A stretch of 53,694 bases of DNA from Actinomycetota bacterium. GTDB lineage: Bacteria; Actinomycetota; Acidimicrobiia; Acidimicrobiales; Microtrichaceae. The position numbers and the translations under genes were made by a program. Below are positions 2,292 through 50,314 of the stretch, piece after piece. The stretch covers positions 1 to 53,694 of the forward strand of contig VGBZ01000015.1 in assembly GCA_016870275.1 (NCBI GenBank), written 5' to 3'. The number at the start of each line of letters is the position of its first letter. The stretch's first letter is position 1. The notes below the pieces were generated by a model. The model ran no database searches and was not told the origin of the DNA. It was given only the letters and a program-made list of their open reading frames with translations.

Positions 2292-4312
2292 GATGATCGC
2301 CCCCCGGGTGATTGTTGGTCTGGTTGGAGTGTCGAGTTGTCCCGGACGCCGGAGCTCACCGTGATGGTGGTTCCCGCACCGGTACGGCTCTCGAAGCGCA
2401 GTTGGGCTCCGATCACATCGGCCCGTTCCCGCATCCCGATCAGACCGTAGGCGGCGTCCCGGGTGCTGGCGGTGATGTCGAAACCGTGACCGTCGTCAGC
2501 GACCACGAGCTGGTACTCGCCCTGTCGGGTGCCCCAATCGACCCGAACCGATGATGCTCCGGCGTGGCGTTCGACGTTGCTCAACGCCTCCTGCAGGATC
2601 CGGAGCAACTCCATCTCCACAGGAACAGCGGCCCGGTTGTCACCGTCGAGAGCATTGAACCTCGCTGGGATCCCGGTTCGTTCGGCGAACCGATTCGTCA
2701 TCTCCGCACCGCGTACCGAGAGGGGGTGGGCGTCGTCCACGCCGGCACGCAGGTCCGAGAGGGTGTACCTCAGTTCGTTGATCGCTGTGTCGACGTCGGA
2801 GCGCAGTCTGGTCACCTGTTCGCTCGGTGTCTGATCGGCGATCTGCTCGAGCTCGAGTGAGATGTAGGTGAGCCACTGTCCGAGGCGATCGTGGAGCTCG
2901 CGAGCGATCCGGCTCCGCTCCTCCTCGGCCCCGAGAGTCCGTAGCCTGGAAAACCACCTGGCATTGTCGAGACTCAGGCCGAGAACGTCGGTGAGCCCGC
3001 CGAGGAGGAGGAGTCGTCGGTGGTCGAAGTGCTCGGCGTCCGGGTGCTCCACGCCGAGCAGTCCAACTGTCCGGCCCCGAGCAGTGAGCGGAACGTAGAC
3101 GGCGCTGGCTCGACCCTGTTGCAGCGGCGCCGGGTCGTCGCTCCCTTCGGGGCCATTCACGGTCACGGGCCGATCTGCCCGGAGTGCCGAAGCGAGCGCA
3201 TCGGGCAGTTCGGAAGTGGGGTAGGCGGCGGTCATGACGCACCCGTCGGCGATCCGGGTGGTCCACTCGTCGGTCGGTTCGTCGAGGGTGAGAAGGACCA
3301 CCGTGTCGACATCGAGATCCCGGCGGAGTTGTTGTCGCGCTTTCTCGACGGTGTCCCGCAGACTCAGTGATCCCGGGAGGGTGCGTGCGGCCTGGGTGAG
3401 CAGAACGAGCAGGTCGTTTGCCTCGCTCAGTCGTGTCACTTCGATCGAGAGCTCGCTCTGGCCCCGGTCGGCCTCCTCGAGTCGGCGACGCAGAAAGGCG
3501 GCCCCAGCGATCGCCAGGATGATCACCATGAGCGCTGCGAGATCCCGACGACTGTCGAACTGCCCGCCGACGTCGACACGACCCGCCGGTGTTGCCACGA
3601 TCAGGACGAGTACACCGATCGCCGCGGCGATCGCTCCCCGCCAACCACCCCAGCCGAGTGTGACGACGATGACCGCCGAGAGCAGCACGAAGAAGTAGGG
3701 GCTCTCCACCCCACCATCGACTCCGACGACGATCCCCACGGCCACCACGTCGAGGAAGGGTGTGACGACGCTTCGCCAGTCGGTGGCCCCGGGTCGGACG
3801 GGAATCATGGTCCGGTAGGTCGTGACGAACAGGCAGACCGCCGTGGCGACCACTGCGGTGTAGCTCCCTCGGAACGCTGCTGGGGCGGCGAAGAGCAGCC
3901 CGAACCCGACCGACCCCCAGCGCAGGGCCAGGATCGCCGGTCCGATGATCGTCTGGTAGGACGGCGCCGGGGAAGGCCCGGTACGGGCCGACGCCGTCAG
4001 CGTTTCCGAAGCGGTGATCGGCGAGGTGTCAGGGCCAGCAGCTTGGCTGGATCGGTGACTGTGGTCGGGTGCCCGGGGCGCGAGCCGCTGATCCTGGATC
4101 GGGCCCCAGCCATCCGCTGCTGCAGCGCCCCCCTGGTCGTCTGGTCCGCTCGGCGCTCCGGCGGTCGGCCGCTCGCTCGTCGACTCCGTGCGGGTGAGCC
4201 TACCGATGGAAGGCGGTCTCTGGTCACACTTCCTGGGTGGTGCGATGTCGGGGCCTAGTATTCGACGTCCGTCCGGAGGCTCGTACCCAGCCCGGTGGCG
4301 CTGTTCCTGCAC
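2288..4312 (-). CDS. Membrane sensor histidine kinase with GAF domain (HisKA_3 type)
   Basis: This is a NarX/DesK-like kinase. About 115 residues rich in Pro, Ser, Gly and Arg at the N-terminus are followed by several transmembrane helices (about 120-270), a GAF-like sensor domain (about 300-450), the dimerisation/phosphorylation motif RIARELHDRLGQ with its His near residue 472, and a HATPase domain with N-box EALSNVERHA and G-box DDGHGF. It phosphorylates the overlapping LuxR-type regulator. The start is doubtful: GTG 4312 has no ribosome site and the first 115 residues look disordered or non-coding, so the true protein may begin nearer the first helix. The kinase itself is certain. Confidence 0.92.
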   Translation of the reverse strand: MQEQRHRAGYEPPDGRRILGPDIAPPRKCDQRPPSIGRLTRTESTSERPTAGAPSGPDDQGGAAAADGWGPIQDQRLAPRAPDHSHRSSQAAGPDTSPITASETLTASARTGPSPAPSYQTIIGPAILALRWGSVGFGLLFAAPAAFRGSYTAVVATAVCLFVTTYRTMIPVRPGATDWRSVVTPFLDVVAVGIVVGVDGGVESPYFFVLLSAVIVVTLGWGGWRGAIAAAIGVLVLIVATPAGRVDVGGQFDSRRDLAALMVIILAIAGAAFLRRRLEEADRGQSELSIEVTRLSEANDLLVLLTQAARTLPGSLSLRDTVEKARQQLRRDLDVDTVVLLTLDEPTDEWTTRIADGCVMTAAYPTSELPDALASALRADRPVTVNGPEGSDDPAPLQQGRASAVYVPLTARGRTVGLLGVEHPDAEHFDHRRLLLLGGLTDVLGLSLDNARWFSRLRTLGAEEERSRIARELHDRLGQWLTYISLELEQIADQTPSEQVTRLRSDVDTAINELRYTLSDLRAGVDDAHPLSVRGAEMTNRFAERTGIPARFNALDGDNRAAVPVEMELLRILQEALSNVERHAGASSVRVDWGTRQGEYQLVVADDGHGFDITASTRDAAYGLIGMRERADVIGAQLRFESRTGAGTTITVSSGVRDNSTLQPDQQSPGGRSS

Positions 4313-4348: not shown

Positions 4349-5278
4349 GTGAGTGAGGAGACCGGCAGCGAGACGGCGGATTCGGTGAAGTTTCCCGGTG
4401 CCCGTCGCCCCGATCGGCGACGGCGGGTGGAGCACGCCGGGGTGAGCCTCTCGGTGGCCGAGTGGGGTGACCCACAGGCTGATCCGGTGGTGGTCGCGCA
4501 CGGTGGGTTCGACTTCGCCGAGACCCTCAATGTCTTCGCGCCGATGATCGCCGATGCCGGCTGGCGGGTGGTGAGCTGGGACCAGCGGGGCCACGGCGAC
4601 TCGGACCGAACTGCGCTCTACAGCTGGGACGCCGATCTTCGTGATGCCGTGGCGGTGATCGACTCGGTGTCACCCGGGCCGCTGCCGCTCATCGGGCACT
4701 CCAAGGGCGGGTCGCTGCTGATGTACCTCGCCGGAGCCATGCCGAGTCGCGTCTCGGCGCTGGTCAACCTCGACGGTCTCCCGTCGTGGGGACGGATGTC
4801 GGATGTAGCGGACCGCGAACGGAGTCGTTCGTTGCGGCGAGAGCTCTCTTCTTGGTTGGAACACCGGCGGACGTTGGTCGGTAAGGAGCGCAAACCGGGG
4901 AGCATCGACGATCTCGCCCGCCGTCGTGGCCGGATGAATCCGAGACTCTCCCAGGAGTGGTTGCGGTACCTCGTGACCGTCGGTGCGGTTCACTCCGAGG
5001 ACGGTTGGCGCTGGAAGATCGATCCGACCATGCGTCTCGGTGGTTTCGGGCCGTTCCAACCGGAGTGGGCGCTGCAGCATCTCCCCGGACTCGCCGTTCC
5101 CTTCCTCGGTGTGCTCGGCCTGGAGGACGAGTTGATGGGTTGGGGAACCCGTCCAGAACACGTCGGTGGATTCCTGCCACCCGATCACCGCTTCGAGACG
5201 CTCGAGGGTGTGGGCCACTTCGTTCACATCGAACAGCCACGCCGAGTCGCTGACCTGGTGTGTGACTTCTTGTCATGA
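4349..5278 (+). CDS. Alpha/beta hydrolase
   Basis: This is a 309-residue alpha/beta-hydrolase-fold enzyme. The oxyanion region is VVVAHGGFDF, the nucleophile elbow is G-H-S-K-G, and the acid is probably the Asp in VLGLEDE. The catalytic His is in GVGHFVHIEQP near the C-terminus. I chose GTG 4349 because GGGAGG lies seven bases upstream; an in-frame ATG at 4295 would overlap the divergent kinase. The stop overlaps the start of a second hydrolase-fold gene (ATGA), so the two are translationally coupled. The substrate cannot be told; epoxide-hydrolase or lipase-like enzymes are both possible. Confidence 0.9.
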   Translation: MSEETGSETADSVKFPGARRPDRRRRVEHAGVSLSVAEWGDPQADPVVVAHGGFDFAETLNVFAPMIADAGWRVVSWDQRGHGDSDRTALYSWDADLRDAVAVIDSVSPGPLPLIGHSKGGSLLMYLAGAMPSRVSALVNLDGLPSWGRMSDVADRERSRSLRRELSSWLEHRRTLVGKERKPGSIDDLARRRGRMNPRLSQEWLRYLVTVGAVHSEDGWRWKIDPTMRLGGFGPFQPEWALQHLPGLAVPFLGVLGLEDELMGWGTRPEHVGGFLPPDHRFETLEGVGHFVHIEQPRRVADLVCDFLS

Positions 5279-9614: not shown

Positions 9615-11474
9615 TCAGACGGTCTCGGATCCGACGAGCACCCGGTACAGATCGGCGTACAGCCCACCCGAGTCCAGCAGTTCCCGGTGACGACCCTGCT
9701 GGACCACCCGGCCGCCGTCGAGGACGACGATCTGGTCGGCGCCCGTGATCGTTGACAGACGGTGGGCGATCACCACGGCGGTCCGCCCCTCCAGCGCGTC
9801 GGCGAGAGCCGCCTGGACGGCGGCCTCGTTCTCGGTGTCGAGTGACGAGGTCGCCTCGTCGAGGATGACGATCGCCGGGTCCTTCAGGACCATGCGGGCG
9901 ATCGCAAGCCGCTGTTGTTCGCCGCCGGACAGTCGGTAGCCGCGCTCGCCGACCATCGTGTCGAACCCTTGGGGTAGCGCATCGACCACATCGAGGATCC
10001 GGGCGTGGCGACACGCGTCGCGCAGTTCCTCGGCAGTGGCCTCGGGCCGGGCGTAACGCAGGTTGTCACCAACCGTGGCGTGGAACAGGTGCGGGTCCTG
10101 GGACACGACCCCGATGGCTGATCGGAGCGACCGCTGCGTCAGGCCCCTGACGTCGTGGCCGTCGACCCGAACGGCGCCGTCGGTCACGTCGTAGAGGCGA
10201 GGGATGAGCGAGACCAGCGTCGACTTGCCGGCGCCGGACGGCCCGACGAGTGCAACGGTGGTGCCGGGTTCGACCGTGATCGTGATGTCGTCGAGGACCA
10301 GCGGCATCTCGCCGTCCCCCTCGTGCGCACCCGCTTCGAGCGAGGCGATCGAGCCGACCCCACCTGCGGGGTAACGGAACGACACGTGGTCGATCTCGAC
10401 CAGGCCCCTGGGGCGGGTCAGCTCCTCTGCGTCGGGCGCGTCGCTGATCGGGTTGTGCGAGTCGAGCACCTCGAAGACCCTCTCGAAGCTCACGAACGCG
10501 CTCATGACGTCCACTCGGGCGTTCGTCAGGCTGGTGAGCGGGTCGTAGATGCGCACCACCAGCGCGGTGAGTGCCACGAGGGTGCCGATGGTGATCGCAC
10601 CCTCGATCACCTGCAGGCCGCCCAGCAGGTACACCGCGGCGGTGCCGATGGCGCCGACCAGACCCATCATCACCAGGAAGAACCTGGAGTACATGGCCGT
10701 CCGCACGCCGATGTCCCGGACGCCGCTCGCCCGTGATCCGAAGTCGTCCCGTTCGGTGTCGTGGTCGCCGAACAGCTTGACGAGTTGGGCGCCCGAGACG
10801 CCGAACCGCTCGGTCATCTGCGCGTTCATCTCAGCGTTGAGGCCCATGGCGTCCCGGGTCATGCCCTGCAGCTTCCGGCCCACGCGCTTGGACGGGATCA
10901 GGAACAGTGGCAGCAACAGGACCGCCACGATCGTCACCCGCCAGTCGAGCGCCACCATTGCGATCAGCACGGCGATCAGCGTGATGACGTTCGACACGAC
11001 GGTCCCGAGCGTTCCGGTCAGCGCTCGCTGGGCGCCGATGACGTCGTTGTTGAGGCGACTGACGAGCGCACCGGTCTGCGATCGCGTGAAGAACTGCAGC
11101 GGCATCCGCTGCACGTGGTCGAACAGGGCGAGTCGCAGGTCGTAGATGAGGCCCTCACCGATCCGGGCCGACCAGCGGCGTTCCAGCAACTGCACGACCG
11201 CACCGATCACGGCGGCGGCAACCACCACCAGACCGAGCAGCACGAGTTGGGAGCGGTCACCGGACGGGATGGTCTGGTCGATGATCGTCCGGAACAGCAG
11301 CGGCGGGACGAGTGCCAGACCGGCGCCGATGGTGATCATGGCCACGAACCCGATCAGCTGGGCCCGGTAGGGGCGCGCAAAGGTGCCGACCCGTCGCACC
11401 GTGGCCCGGTCGATCGTCGCTCCGGAAACGGAGTCGGGGTCTTGGTGCATCATCCGCATCGCGGCCATGGACAT
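9615..11474 (-). CDS. ABC exporter, fused permease-ATPase (MsbA/MDR type)
   Basis: This is a half-transporter of about 619 residues. The N-terminal membrane domain has six predicted helices (about residues 35-330). The ATPase domain has Walker A GPSGAGKST at about 411, the Q-loop VVSQDPHLFH, the signature LSGGEQQR and Walker B VILDEATSSLD. It probably homodimerises to export lipids or hydrophobic compounds. I chose ATG 11474 (TACCCT seven bases upstream); an in-frame codon at 11579 would overlap divergent uppP. A Gly/Glu-rich insert of about 15 residues lies between the first ATPase strands. Confidence 0.93.
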   Translation of the reverse strand: MSMAAMRMMHQDPDSVSGATIDRATVRRVGTFARPYRAQLIGFVAMITIGAGLALVPPLLFRTIIDQTIPSGDRSQLVLLGLVVVAAAVIGAVVQLLERRWSARIGEGLIYDLRLALFDHVQRMPLQFFTRSQTGALVSRLNNDVIGAQRALTGTLGTVVSNVITLIAVLIAMVALDWRVTIVAVLLLPLFLIPSKRVGRKLQGMTRDAMGLNAEMNAQMTERFGVSGAQLVKLFGDHDTERDDFGSRASGVRDIGVRTAMYSRFFLVMMGLVGAIGTAAVYLLGGLQVIEGAITIGTLVALTALVVRIYDPLTSLTNARVDVMSAFVSFERVFEVLDSHNPISDAPDAEELTRPRGLVEIDHVSFRYPAGGVGSIASLEAGAHEGDGEMPLVLDDITITVEPGTTVALVGPSGAGKSTLVSLIPRLYDVTDGAVRVDGHDVRGLTQRSLRSAIGVVSQDPHLFHATVGDNLRYARPEATAEELRDACRHARILDVVDALPQGFDTMVGERGYRLSGGEQQRLAIARMVLKDPAIVILDEATSSLDTENEAAVQAALADALEGRTAVVIAHRLSTITGADQIVVLDGGRVVQQGRHRELLDSGGLYADLYRVLVGSETV

Positions 11475-11481
11475 TGGGCGC

Positions 11482-11487
11482 AGGGTA
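11482..11487 (-). promoter_or_regulatory. -10 element TACCCT of the ABC exporter gene (leaderless)
   Basis: TACCCT on the minus strand is separated by seven bases from ATG 11474. It lies in the short divergent intergenic region shared with uppP. Confidence 0.5.
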
Positions 11488-11515
11488 CCCACGACCTGCG
11501 GCTGGAGGTGCGAGA

Positions 11516-12634
11516 GTGTCGGCAGTGGGGAACCGGTCGAACGCCGTTGGCAGGGCCTCACCCCGCTGTCGGATGCCACTCATGGCGCCGCCCGTGGGAC
11601 CGCTCGGTGCGCCACGGCTCGGCGTCGCCGGGGCGGTCTCCGTTCTGTTCGCATCCGTCGTGGCCGTGGTCCTCACCGATCCGGCGGGTGCGCTCGCCGC
11701 TGCGTCGGGTGCTCCGGGGGTGAGCCTGTCGTGGTGGCAGGCGGCGATCCTCGGTGTGGTCGAGGGTGTCACCGAGTACCTGCCCATCTCCTCCACCGGG
11801 CACCTGCTGATCGCCTCCCGCTTGCTCGGGCTCCCGGACGAGCAGGGCAGTCCCGGACTCGAGGCGGTCAACACCTATGCGATCGCCATCCAATTCGGGG
11901 CGATCCTGGCGGTGGCGGGCCTCTTCTGGCGCCGGTTCCGCGACATGGTGCTCGGACTGTTCGGTCGCTCGGAGGCTGGCCGTCACCTCCTCGTCGTTCT
12001 GGTGATCGCGTTCGTGCCCTCGGCCCTGCTCGGATTCCTGTTCGACGATGCGATCGAGTCGGCACTCTTCGGCCCCTGGCCGATCGTGGCGGCCTGGGTG
12101 ATCGGCGGTGTGGTGATCCTGGTGCTCGAGCGCACCGGGCGGATCCCGAGCCGACGGCCAGCCGCCGGTGGACCCGCAGACGACGCGACGACCGGTCGAT
12201 CGGGTGACGGACCCGGCGACGACGCCCCGGGACGGGACCCGCTCCTGTCGATCACCCACCAGCAGGCACTCGTGGTGGGTCTCGCCCAGTGTCTGGCGCT
12301 GTGGCCCGGGACGAGCCGCAGCCTGGCGACCATCCTGGGCGCGCTGCTGGTCGGGGTGTCGGTCGTGGCTGCGGTGGAGTTCAGCTTCCTCCTGGGGTTC
12401 GCAACCCTCACCGCGGCCTCGGGCTACAAGTTGCTCACCGACGGCGGCACCCTCGTCGAGCAGTTCGGTGTGGTGACACCGCTCGCCGGCGCTCTGTTCG
12501 CCCTCGTCTCGGCCGTCCTGGCGATCAAGTGGCTGGTTGCCTATCTGGAGCGGCACGACCTGACGATCTTCGCCTGGTACCGCTTCGTCGTTGCGGGACT
12601 GGCTGTCGCGTTGTTGCTGACCGGCGTGCTCTAG
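11516..12634 (+). CDS. uppP: Undecaprenyl-diphosphatase (BacA/UppP family)
   Basis: This integral membrane enzyme dephosphorylates undecaprenyl pyrophosphate to recycle the lipid carrier of peptidoglycan synthesis, and its over-activity gives bacitracin resistance. Both active-site repeats are present: E-G-V-T-E-Y-L-P-I-S-S-T-G-H-L and, later, P-G-T-S-R-S-L-A-T-I. GTG 11516 is chosen for a perfect GGAGG seven bases upstream. The protein (372 residues) carries an extra hydrophobic N-terminal segment before the usual first helix and a Gly/Asp-rich loop (about 215-245) not found in short homologues. Confidence 0.93.
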   Translation: MSAVGNRSNAVGRASPRCRMPLMAPPVGPLGAPRLGVAGAVSVLFASVVAVVLTDPAGALAAASGAPGVSLSWWQAAILGVVEGVTEYLPISSTGHLLIASRLLGLPDEQGSPGLEAVNTYAIAIQFGAILAVAGLFWRRFRDMVLGLFGRSEAGRHLLVVLVIAFVPSALLGFLFDDAIESALFGPWPIVAAWVIGGVVILVLERTGRIPSRRPAAGGPADDATTGRSGDGPGDDAPGRDPLLSITHQQALVVGLAQCLALWPGTSRSLATILGALLVGVSVVAAVEFSFLLGFATLTAASGYKLLTDGGTLVEQFGVVTPLAGALFALVSAVLAIKWLVAYLERHDLTIFAWYRFVVAGLAVALLLTGVL

Positions 12635-12679
12635 GCGGTCGCGGGCTCGGCGCCGGACCTTCTGGTCCCGGACGCAGCG

Positions 12680-12705
12680 CTGCCCCCGAACGACGTCGGG
12701 GGCAG
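12680..12705. terminator. Hairpin between uppP and tRNA-Ser (bidirectional terminator-like)
   Basis: A perfect 10-bp GC-rich stem (CTGCCCCCGA / TCGGGGGCAG) encloses a 6-base loop. It lies after the uppP stop and after the 3' end of the convergent tRNA. There is no T-run, so this is termination by hairpin alone or processing. Confidence 0.6.
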
Positions 12706-12717
12706 CTGCAACTGAGC

Positions 12718-12803
12718 GGAGAGTGAGGGATTCGAACCCTCGGAGGCCTTGCGACCTCAACGGTTTTCGAGACCGTCCCATTCGTCCGCTCTGGCAACTC
12801 TCC
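12718..12803 (-). tRNA. tRNA-Ser(CGA)
   Basis: This 86-base class II tRNA reads GGAGAGT at the 5' end pairing with ACTCTCC at the 3' end. The anticodon arm ACGGT-CTCGAAA-ACCGT gives anticodon CGA, reading UCG. There is a long variable arm, and the T arm GAGGGTTCGAATCCCTC is canonical. No CCA is encoded. A second tRNA-Ser with a different anticodon lies 1.7 kb downstream on the same strand. Confidence 0.96.
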
Positions 12804-12810
12804 GTCTGCG

Positions 12811-12816
12811 ACGTTA
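12811..12816 (-). promoter_or_regulatory. -10 element TAACGT of tRNA-Ser(CGA)
   Basis: TAACGT on the minus strand ends seven bases before the first base of the mature tRNA, so the primary transcript would have almost no 5' extension. Confidence 0.5.
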
Positions 12817-12850
12817 GCCGTGGCGAAAGGTTCGTCCCACCTCGAGACGA

Positions 12851-12949
12851 CCCTCCCGCCGCCCCTCTTCCCCCGGCTTTGTGGTGCGAGCTACATGGAT
12901 ATCCATGTAGCTCGCACCACAAAGCGGGGAGGGGGGGGAGGGGGGGAGG
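12851..12949. repeat. Long inverted repeat: 25-bp perfect palindromic arms flanked by C-rich/G-rich arms
   Basis: From 12876 to 12925 the sequence is a perfect palindrome with no loop: arm GCTTTGTGGTGCGAGCTACATGGAT meets its reverse complement at 12900/12901 (the arm is given here in two parts: GCTTTGTGGTGCG then AGCTACATGGAT). Outside it, the C-rich arm at 12851-12874 can pair with the G-rich arm at 12926-12949 at about 20 of 24 positions, counting G-U pairs, after one bulged base. It lies between the TAA of the sugar-lactonase gene and tRNA-Ser(CGA). It could be a terminator, a cruciform or a mobile palindromic unit. Confidence 0.9.
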
Positions 12950-12950
12950 G

Positions 12951-13835
12951 TTACGGGGAGCCGGCGCCGGGCACCGAGACAGTGGCGACCTCGATCCTCG
13001 CCGTCCGTTCGGCAGTGCAGACGTCGGCGGTGGAGGTCTCAGCGGTGCACACGAAGAGCGTGGTGCCGTCCTCCCCACCGAGGTTGCACGCAAACGCCCG
13101 CTGACCGGTGGTGACACGGTCGGTGATCTCGCCGCCCTCGAGCACGCGGACGCACTCGGCACCCAAAGCGTTCGCCACCCATACCGCCCCCTCGGCGTCC
13201 AGGCAGATCCCGTCGGGCGGGATCAGGTGCGCCGAGAGGTCGGCCCACACGCGACGGTTGGACAGCCGGCCGTCGTCGTCGATGTCGAATGCGGTGAGCC
13301 GTAGGGCCAGGGTCTCGGCGACGATCAGGGTGCGACCGTCGGGTGTCACCACCGTGCCGTTCGGGAATCGCATCTCGTCGGCTGCGACCTCCACGGTGCC
13401 GTCCGGCTGCACCAGGATCACGTGCGACAAGGTCGGGGCGTCGGGCGACATGAGCGCGTCGGCGCCGTGTTCGGCGACGTAGGCGTCGAGGTCCAGACCG
13501 AAGTGTCCGACGTAGGCGCGCCCGTGGGTGTCGACGAGCATGTCGTTGCACCAGTAGGTGGCGATGTGGGACAGATCGGCGTGGAGGACGAGCGACCCGT
13601 CGGGCTCCAGTCGCCGCACCTGCCTGCTGGTCATGGCCACCACGAGCAGCCGGCCATCGGGCAGCCACCCGAGTCCCGAGGGCTGGTCGTCGAGCTCGAG
13701 CTCGATCCGGTCGTCGCCGTCGGGCCCCACCGAGTGGACAGCGTGTCCGTAGAAGTCGCTGTACCAGAGGCGACCGTCGTGCCATCGGGGGTCCTCGGTG
13801 AAGTGGCGGCCATCGACGAGCACGGTGGTGTCCAT
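12951..13835 (-). CDS. SMP-30/gluconolactonase/LRE-family protein
   Basis: This is a six-bladed beta-propeller lactonase of about 294 residues. Hallmarks are GRHFTEDPRWHDGRLWYSD near the N-terminus (metal-binding Glu), SGLGWLPDGRLLVV, CNDMLVD (Asn/Asp metal ligands), FPNGTVVTPDGRTLIVAET, and PDGICLDAEGAVWVAN (catalytic Asp). The usual substrates are sugar-acid lactones. ATG 13835 gives a family-like N-terminus; a GTG at 13886 directly after the tadA stop would add 17 arginine-rich residues. The TAA stop abuts the G-rich end of the long inverted repeat. Confidence 0.92.
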   Translation of the reverse strand: MDTTVLVDGRHFTEDPRWHDGRLWYSDFYGHAVHSVGPDGDDRIELELDDQPSGLGWLPDGRLLVVAMTSRQVRRLEPDGSLVLHADLSHIATYWCNDMLVDTHGRAYVGHFGLDLDAYVAEHGADALMSPDAPTLSHVILVQPDGTVEVAADEMRFPNGTVVTPDGRTLIVAETLALRLTAFDIDDDGRLSNRRVWADLSAHLIPPDGICLDAEGAVWVANALGAECVRVLEGGEITDRVTTGQRAFACNLGGEDGTTLFVCTAETSTADVCTAERTARIEVATVSVPGAGSP

Positions 13836-13886
13836 GGAGACCACTCTTTCAGAGCTGACCGGCTCTCGTCTTCGGGAACCGCTCAC

Positions 13887-49462: not shown

Positions 49463-50314
49463 ATGGCGGTGGTCGATTGGTGCACGGTCGACGGCAACGC
49501 CCAGCGTCTGAACGGCGGCGCCATGTTCGGCAACGCCCCGAAGGCGCTCTGGGAGCGTTGGGTGGACGTCGACGAGGTGAACCGGATCCCGCTCACCACC
49601 CGCTCGGTGCTGATCCGCTAGGACTCGGGCCGCATCGTGCTCCTCGAGGCGGGGGTCGGCGCCTTCTTCCCTCCGGAGCAGCGGGAGCGGTTCGGGGTCA
49701 GCGAGGACCGCCACGTGCTGCTCGACGGGCTCGCCGCCGAGGGGGTCGGTCCGGGCGACGTGGACGTCGTGGTCCTGTCGCACCTGCACTTCGACCATGC
49801 CGGTGGGGTGCTGCGGGCGTGGGAGCCTGACCACCCTCCGGAACTGGTGTTCACCGACGCCGACTACGTCGTTGGTCGAACCGCATGGGACAGGGCGGCC
49901 GCTCCCACCCCGAGGGACCGGGCGTCGTTCATTGCGGAGTTGCCGGGGCTGCTGGAGGCGACCGGTCGGGTCGAACTGGTCGACGGTCCCACCTCGTCCA
50001 CGCTCGGTGACGGCTACCGGTTCCACACCTCCGACGGGCACACCCCGGGCCTGCTGCTCACGGAGTTCGACACCGGTGACGGGCCGGTCGTGTACGCCTC
50101 GGACCTGGTGCCGGGCGTGCCGTGGGTGCACGTGCCGATCACGATGGGATACGACCGGTTCTTCGAACTGGTGGTGCAGGAGAAGGCCGGGTTCCTGGCC
50201 GACGTGGCGGCCCGAGGCGTCACGGTCGTGTTCACCCACGATCCCGACGTCGCGGCCTCGACCATCCGACAGGACGACCGAGGCCGCTTCGTCGCCGAGT
50301 TCAGTCGACCGTGA
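49463..50314 (+). pseudogene. MBL-fold metallo-hydrolase gene interrupted by one in-frame amber codon
   Basis: ATG 49463, behind GGAGG, starts a frame that reads to LTTRSVLIR, meets TAG at 49619 (codon 53), and continues in the same frame as [16 protein letters not shown] to a natural TGA at 50314. The rest is a complete lactamase-fold enzyme: S-H-L-H-F-D-H, the SDGHTPG His, [12 protein letters not shown], and [12 protein letters not shown] single CAG-to-TAG change would explain it. Either this is a recent pseudogene or read-through occurs. Restart at GTG 49637 would lack the first strands. The stop overlaps the 3' end of the convergent lipoprotein gene. Confidence 0.8.

Follow-up and report, generated by a model that had tools for sequence, protein, structure and literature searches.

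What does a perfect, loop-free palindrome do between a lactonase gene and a tRNA gene? The question was raised by the window, the whole stretch of 53,694 nucleotides analysed here, in which positions 12876..12925 equal their own reverse complement, with two 25-bp arms and a spacer of 0 (no strand assigned), exactly as the earlier note had described. On the minus strand, the SMP-30/gluconolactonase-like gene (12951..13886; start uncertain, 13844 by the gene caller used here; Pfam SGL, E 7.3e-44) reached its stop codon at 12951 and was followed after 26 nt by the element and then, farther 3' on this strand, by tRNA-Ser(CGA) (12716..12803). The BacA/UppP-type gene on the plus strand (11474..12634, start uncertain) approached both the tRNA and the element convergently from the other side and ended at 12634.

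A loop-free palindrome with imperfect outer arms

The perfect core was flanked by a C-rich outer arm (12850..12875) and a G-rich outer arm (12926..12951, up to the lactonase stop codon), neither assigned to a strand, which paired with each other at 18 of 26 positions. The earlier note had given about four mismatches in about 24 positions for this extension; the arms did pair, but more weakly, with 8 mismatches in 26, three of the eight being G-T on the plus strand. RNA folding of 12841-12959 gave z-scores of -12.3 for the plus strand and -11.7 for the minus strand, the fold that the earlier note had recommended, 0 of 200 shuffles equalling either score, and the plus strand as DNA also folded far better than its shuffles. 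Only two inverted repeats with arms of at least 20 bp were present in the window at a separation limit of 60, and the other one, at 50245-50294, was imperfect, with 23-nt arms that were 78% complementary and a 4-nt gap. Rfam returned nothing above gathering except the tRNA, the matches of the hairpin, mostly to miRNA families, all scoring below it, and a search of 12600-13100 for terminators with a T-run found 0.

Copies in the genome and at orthologous sites

A search of the genome and its relatives for the core, also proposed in the earlier note, showed that the element occurred at no fewer than 15 places in this genome (G000; 3.2 Mb, 137 contigs). Among the 61 genomes searched, its own included, exact copies were found only in G000 (15) and in two congeners, G005 (11) and G003 (3). 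All 15 own copies had the rigid form GTGGTGCGAGC-N18-GCTCGCACCAC. In the window, the 48-bp element in the family register CTTTGTG ... CACAAAG (12877..12924, no strand), aligned with the 14 other own copies, contained the invariant arm GTGGTGCGAGC at 12881..12891 on the plus strand, a variable interior of 18 bp and fixed length at 12892..12909 (no strand), and the inverted invariant arm at 12910..12920 on the minus strand, which reads GCTCGCACCAC on the plus strand. The 48-bp body started with CTTTGTG in 13 of the 15 copies and with CTCTGTG in two. No single half-sites were found in the own genome, only the paired copies and one 19-nt partial match.

A called gene 3' end lay 10-30 nt away in 14 of the 15 own copies, the fifteenth being at a contig edge; by rough gene calling, nine copies were in convergent gaps, five were between genes of the same direction and one was at the contig edge. 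The 30-nt flanks of 14 copies had a mean C content of 0.56 on the left and a mean G content of 0.59 on the right, compared with an average of 0.41 C in the 30 nt after 131 called stops, and some genes terminated within TTCTGTGA. The genes beside the other copies encoded DUF520, M48 peptidase, isocitrate dehydrogenase-type, nitronate monooxygenase, acyl-CoA dehydrogenase and other proteins with no common theme (20 of 23 neighbour proteins were scanned, 17 with a family and three without, plus the window lactonase separately; two were left out). A signal particular to the lactonase-tRNA pair, proposed earlier as joining the lactonase transcript to tRNA-Ser, was rejected, as the other copies adjoin unrelated genes. 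That the copies are ordinary intrinsic terminators, alike by chance, would fit strong hairpins near stop codons; this is very improbable in view of 15 dispersed copies with a common sequence, fixed spacing and no T-run, and the invariance of the arms is strongly against it.

The arms were also unchanged between genomes. In the 33 genomes of the family, a search that permitted up to 3 mismatches in 22, and that copies with more changes would escape, recovered 29 copies (G000, G005 and G003), all 29 without a mismatch in the arms. The spacing was 18 in each of the 29, although the search for exact copies had permitted 8-30. For no fewer than 13 of the 15 sites in the own genome, G003, G005 or both had an element, complete or halved, at the orthologous position, the other two being undecided with the loci compared; this retention contradicts the suggestion that the palindrome was recently inserted. 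Within the genus, three of six genomes (G001, G002 and G004) lacked the element at the window site, so that the earlier concern about relatives without the arms was correct for this site but not in its second part, as other copies exist. Seven pairs of complete orthologous elements, from six sites of which one was used twice, differed at 0 of 154 arm positions, compared with 38 of 126 interior positions, and the DNA flanking the orthologous elements was 74 to 91% identical. The probability of no arm change would be 5e-14 if positions were free at 82% identity, a figure that serves as a guide only, as the pairs are non-independent and the orthologues were found via exact arms. By this comparison of sequences, the arms look selected, frozen between species while the interior drifts, in agreement with one of the two alternatives in the earlier note, which held a structure of this length hard to maintain unless selected or recently inserted. 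Uniform homogenisation fails to explain the pattern because the interiors differ among copies within G005. Whether the outer base pair (CTTTGTG versus CTCTGTG) evolves in concert was also considered, and the idea was dropped, as G005 has mixed forms.

In a second genus, five of the six listed matches in G025 (12 in all), at four sites, coincided with a G015 element, and the sixth was unmatched in the loci compared. The G015 element at L259:3040 was missing in G025, where the empty site was not clean. In the congener G002, the isocitrate dehydrogenase-type gene that has the element behind it in G000 was followed by another 48-bp palindrome with TTCTGTG ends, whose body differed (L128 about 3260-3310, G002:C353). 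Sites seem to turn over between genera and to hold within a genus.

Contigs of the relatives often started or ended within the palindrome (L140, L132-L135, L300-L303 and L307-L309 in G003 and G005; L127 in G004). Half elements lay at contig ends, and G004, scored 0, has one half. Because contigs break in the palindrome, the copy counts in the G003, G005 and G004 assemblies are lower bounds; more generally, short-read assemblies of genomes like these will show too few copies, being interrupted at the palindromes. An assembly artefact at the palindrome centre, which the earlier note had raised, might be suspected from these breaks; it is very unlikely, given whole elements in other assemblies at six orthologous sites, in seven pairs, and, at the site in the window, the G003 contig C250, which starts at the exact centre of the palindrome.

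The explanation that we prefer, with a probability of about 0.45 and thus somewhat below even odds, is that the dispersed REP-like palindrome is a two-way hairpin at gene 3' ends whose arms are read by a putative factor. The hairpin, which either strand would form, would span about 23 bp and be extended in this copy by the C- and G-rich flanks; it would stop or block RNA polymerase, or protect or process the RNA end. Around tRNA-Ser, the transcript of the lactonase gene would thereby be kept apart from transcription arriving from the BacA side. The putative factor would read the arms sequence-specifically, and such reading would explain why the arms are frozen while the interior drifts.

Look-alikes in other genera and the pairing of their arms

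In G010, which belongs to another genus of the same family, 59 matches to GTGNTGCGAG-N20-CTCGCANCAC were found with at most 1 mismatch. The own genus and G010 both have GTGNTGCGAG; common descent of their elements is likely. Four of the five listed G010 copies paired at N in three states (A-T, T-A and C-G), the fifth being A-A, and of seven copies read with their flanks, four extended to TTCTGTG and three did not. In G007, two of four copies reached TTCTGTG and two read TTCCGTG.

Elements with TTCTGTG/CACAGAA ends and genus-specific interiors were found more widely. The loose pattern YTCTGTG-N24-54-CACAGAR had at least one match in 112 of 298 genomes of the order, mostly few and with the control often likewise; 14 of the 298, in seven families, had 5 or more matches and no more than 1 in the backward control. 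Leaving out G295, which had 8 matches at loose spacing and 0 at 45-49 bp, gives 13 genomes in six families. G218 (10 matches versus 4 in the control) was excluded from the 14. These ends were set by the search pattern and the length was not: the tight pattern (45-49 bp, exact TTCTGTG) retained 104 of the 111 loose-pattern matches (38-68 bp) in G006, G009, G015, G021, G025 and G035. Among the listed copies, the length was 47 bp in G035 (24 of 24) and 48 bp in G009 (17 of 17), G015 (28 of 28) and G025 (6 listed), the exceptions being G499, with listed copies of 47 and 49 bp, and G045, with one of 43 bp. The tight pattern gave 121 matches versus 0 in the control in 12 chosen genomes, and 49 matches in 10 of 396 genomes versus 1 in the control across the phylum. 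Multi-copy genomes in the phylum scan were G006 (17), G577 (14), G499 (8), G588 (3) and G735 (2), the five singleton genomes not being counted as members, and the pairing of the G006 and G499 interiors was only partial by eye. The own element and the TTCTGTG look-alikes were similar in length, placement and ends, the last being set by the search pattern, with no neighbour genes common between genera.

Several other matches were set aside. Exact-core matches in other organisms (10 of 23 stretches) measured 30 to 50 nt overall, none of them 40, and were treated as unrelated hairpins, and matches with 1-3 mismatches in G020, G026, G328, G338 and G409 equalled the backward-control level and were not counted. 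A metagenome-assembled genome labelled Gracilibacteria had three hairpins with the same arms (L066, L079 and L083), 38-39 nt overall and two of them with a similar flank, which are either a separate repeat family or a contaminant. In G285, two identical head-to-tail copies with a 60-bp period were observed at each of two loci (L261 3093 and 3153; L263 3075 and 3135).

Pairing was analysed in the G035 copies, where the outer 11 pairs were near-invariant (the first seven fixed by the search), the five middle pairs were often broken, and the pairs adjacent to the centre covaried. The fraction of paired cells was 90.7%, and the covariation was 0.201 compared with 0.111 after shuffling (0 of 500) and at most 0.112 after sliding, both measures exceeding every one of the 500 shuffles and every slid control. 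A weak measure was the number of pair types, which 82 of the 500 shuffles also reached. Such covariation may reflect either selection for pairing or the repair of palindromes by template switching. In one-way transcripts, the departures from pairing on the sense strand (20 G-T, 16 A-C and 59 other) gave no sign of RNA-specific wobble, and because this strand has no G-U excess, an RNA hairpin and a DNA hairpin are indistinguishable here.

These data bear on the alternative that the element is a site at which a dimeric protein, architectural or regulatory, binds double-stranded DNA; the palindrome would then serve two-fold binding and not a hairpin. Such a site would account for the invariant arms, the fixed 18-bp spacing, the variable interior, the near-constant total lengths given above and the lack of a G-U excess. 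The covarying pairs near the dyad in G035 and the three-state pairing in G010 argue instead for base pairing or for correction by template switching, and the depletion from divergent gaps described below would be odd for a transcription-factor site. We consider this alternative unlikely, though a serious rival to the two-way hairpin.

Short tandem repeats were observed near stop codons beside some elements (L014 about 3560-3800 and 4750-4850; L259 2870-3000), for example of TCAGG and GAGCAACGGGGTC. Their frequency at the flanks was 22 of 56 in G015 versus 5 of 74 at control stops, and 11 of 29 in G000 versus 7 of 108; they were absent in G035, G285 and G215 and few in G009 and G045. The repeats would fit slippage beside the longest perfect palindromes, and their presence by copies in two genomes is only a hint at cruciform formation.

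Placement at gene ends and comparison with known repeats

Placement was analysed with 100 copies from the loci of seven genomes, 11 of which were called inside an ORF by a rough caller. Among the 89 copies outside ORFs, 80 nt or less separated 68 from a called gene 3' end; the other 21, 15 of them in G015, had no such end in that range. Gaps with an element were convergent more often than gaps of at least 20 nt without one (37 of 83 versus 33 of 226, p 1.7e-7) and divergent less often (8 of 83 versus 73 of 226, p 3.4e-5). The convergent excess was uneven: it came from G000, G035, G015 and G215, with 0 of 5 in G285 and 3 of 12 in G009, where four further gaps were divergent. Among 22 cross-genus matches of neighbour genes, 0 pairs were adjacent to an element in both genera, in a test of low power. 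At L250 and L251 of G015, the element was observed soon after the stop of two genes whose translated ends read as EF-Tu-like C-termini.

The 21 of 89 copies with no called gene end within 80 nt, most of which (15) belong to G015, count somewhat against the two-way hairpin and in favour of a mobile origin. In the latter explanation the palindrome is a non-autonomous, MITE- or REP-like element whose ends are recognised by a putative transposase, and the place at gene ends reflects tolerated insertion. The copies are dispersed and genus-specific, vary in presence among congeners and share no neighbour gene between genera; G015 has 28 closely similar copies, 15 of 27 without a called gene end within 80 nt, and G285 has identical tandem pairs. 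The palindromic mobile unit suggested in the earlier note agrees with dispersal in 15 copies; movement itself would be deduced from sites without the element and from cross-genus neighbours that are not shared. Old mobile copies, however, should decay evenly, whereas here the interior drifts between frozen arms. Nor was a target duplication seen by eye in the flanks of 85 copies or at the inspected sites without the element, which were unclean.

Among the closest known systems are the REPs. REPs lie mostly between convergent or same-direction genes, the convergent ones mostly less than 20 bp from 3' ends, and their ends sometimes provide the stop codon (PMC3733652), a likeness that favours a mobile origin. 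The present element is likewise a short, dispersed palindrome at gene 3' ends (14 of 15 copies in the own genome; unevenly in the seven genomes), and TTCTGTGA supplies stop codons here as REP ends sometimes do (PMC3733652). It differs in being longer and symmetric and in its lower copy number, REPs usually exceeding 100 copies per genome (PMC2817692). An unpaired GTAG or CGTC motif at one end defines REPs (PMC3733652); on inspection no such end tag was found, the ends being symmetric and paired, and GTAG occurred within some own copies in a non-terminal position. Alternating-orientation pairs of the BIME/REPIN kind were not seen, only the head-to-tail pairs at the two G285 loci, and a palindrome has almost no orientation. 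The RAYT transposase (Y1_Tnp, PF01797) was found 0 times in G000 and in 0 of 17 other genomes, while 5 of 14 control genomes were positive, and RAYT as the mobiliser was rejected; the 18 genomes included four non-carriers of the family (G001, G008, G012 and G014), and the search covered Y1/RAYT only. The element thus behaves like a REP, with no RAYT link found. We know of no REPs whose arms are unchanged copy by copy. Taken with the evidence above, the mobile origin is doubtful, though a serious rival as well.

Other systems resembled the element in part. Like MITEs, it is a dispersed non-coding inverted repeat; unlike them, it measures only about 48 bp, and each copy keeps its arms while its interior diverges. 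The paired uptake-sequence terminators of Neisseria and Haemophilus form gene-end hairpins from inverted repeats of specific sequence, as the present element would. DNA uptake sequences also occur as many single half-sites, however, and those of the element occur in the own genome only in pairs, apart from the 19-nt partial match. The idea of uptake-sequence pairs as terminators is mentioned in PMC2267715. Integron attC boxes follow RYYYAAC ... GTTRRRY, and by inspection the element ends GTT... and ...AAC point the opposite way. Factor-independent bidirectional terminators have a hairpin after the stop codon that is readable both ways, and the present hairpin shares this position and two-way reading but lacks a T-run and has a frozen sequence and a fixed spacing. 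A search of the literature found nothing recognised as describing these elements, which is not proof of absence.

Several observations count against the two-way hairpin that we prefer: no T-run, no RNA-specific wobble, 21 of 89 copies without a gene end, an uneven convergent excess, a weak pair-type count, no cross-genus neighbours, and three of six congener genomes without the element at the window site. A terminator hairpin also requires neither a frozen sequence nor fixed spacing, and about 15 gene ends per genome are too few for a general terminator. A still wider proposal is that palindromes at gene ends are scattered through the Actinomycetota, nearly constant in length (mostly 47 or 48 bp), alike in their TTCTGTG ends and different in body from genus to genus. 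A putative co-evolving factor would read them and end or insulate transcription both ways, making them factor-dependent, sequence-specific bidirectional terminators distinct from Rho- or T-run-dependent termination and from RAYT-driven REPs; we put it forward as a speculative and rather improbable generalisation. If the reading holds, the RAYT enzyme, which accounts for many REPs elsewhere, would be missing from a REP-like system of some actinobacteria whose arms stay the same in every copy, and a defined sequence would be available for finding the binding factor.
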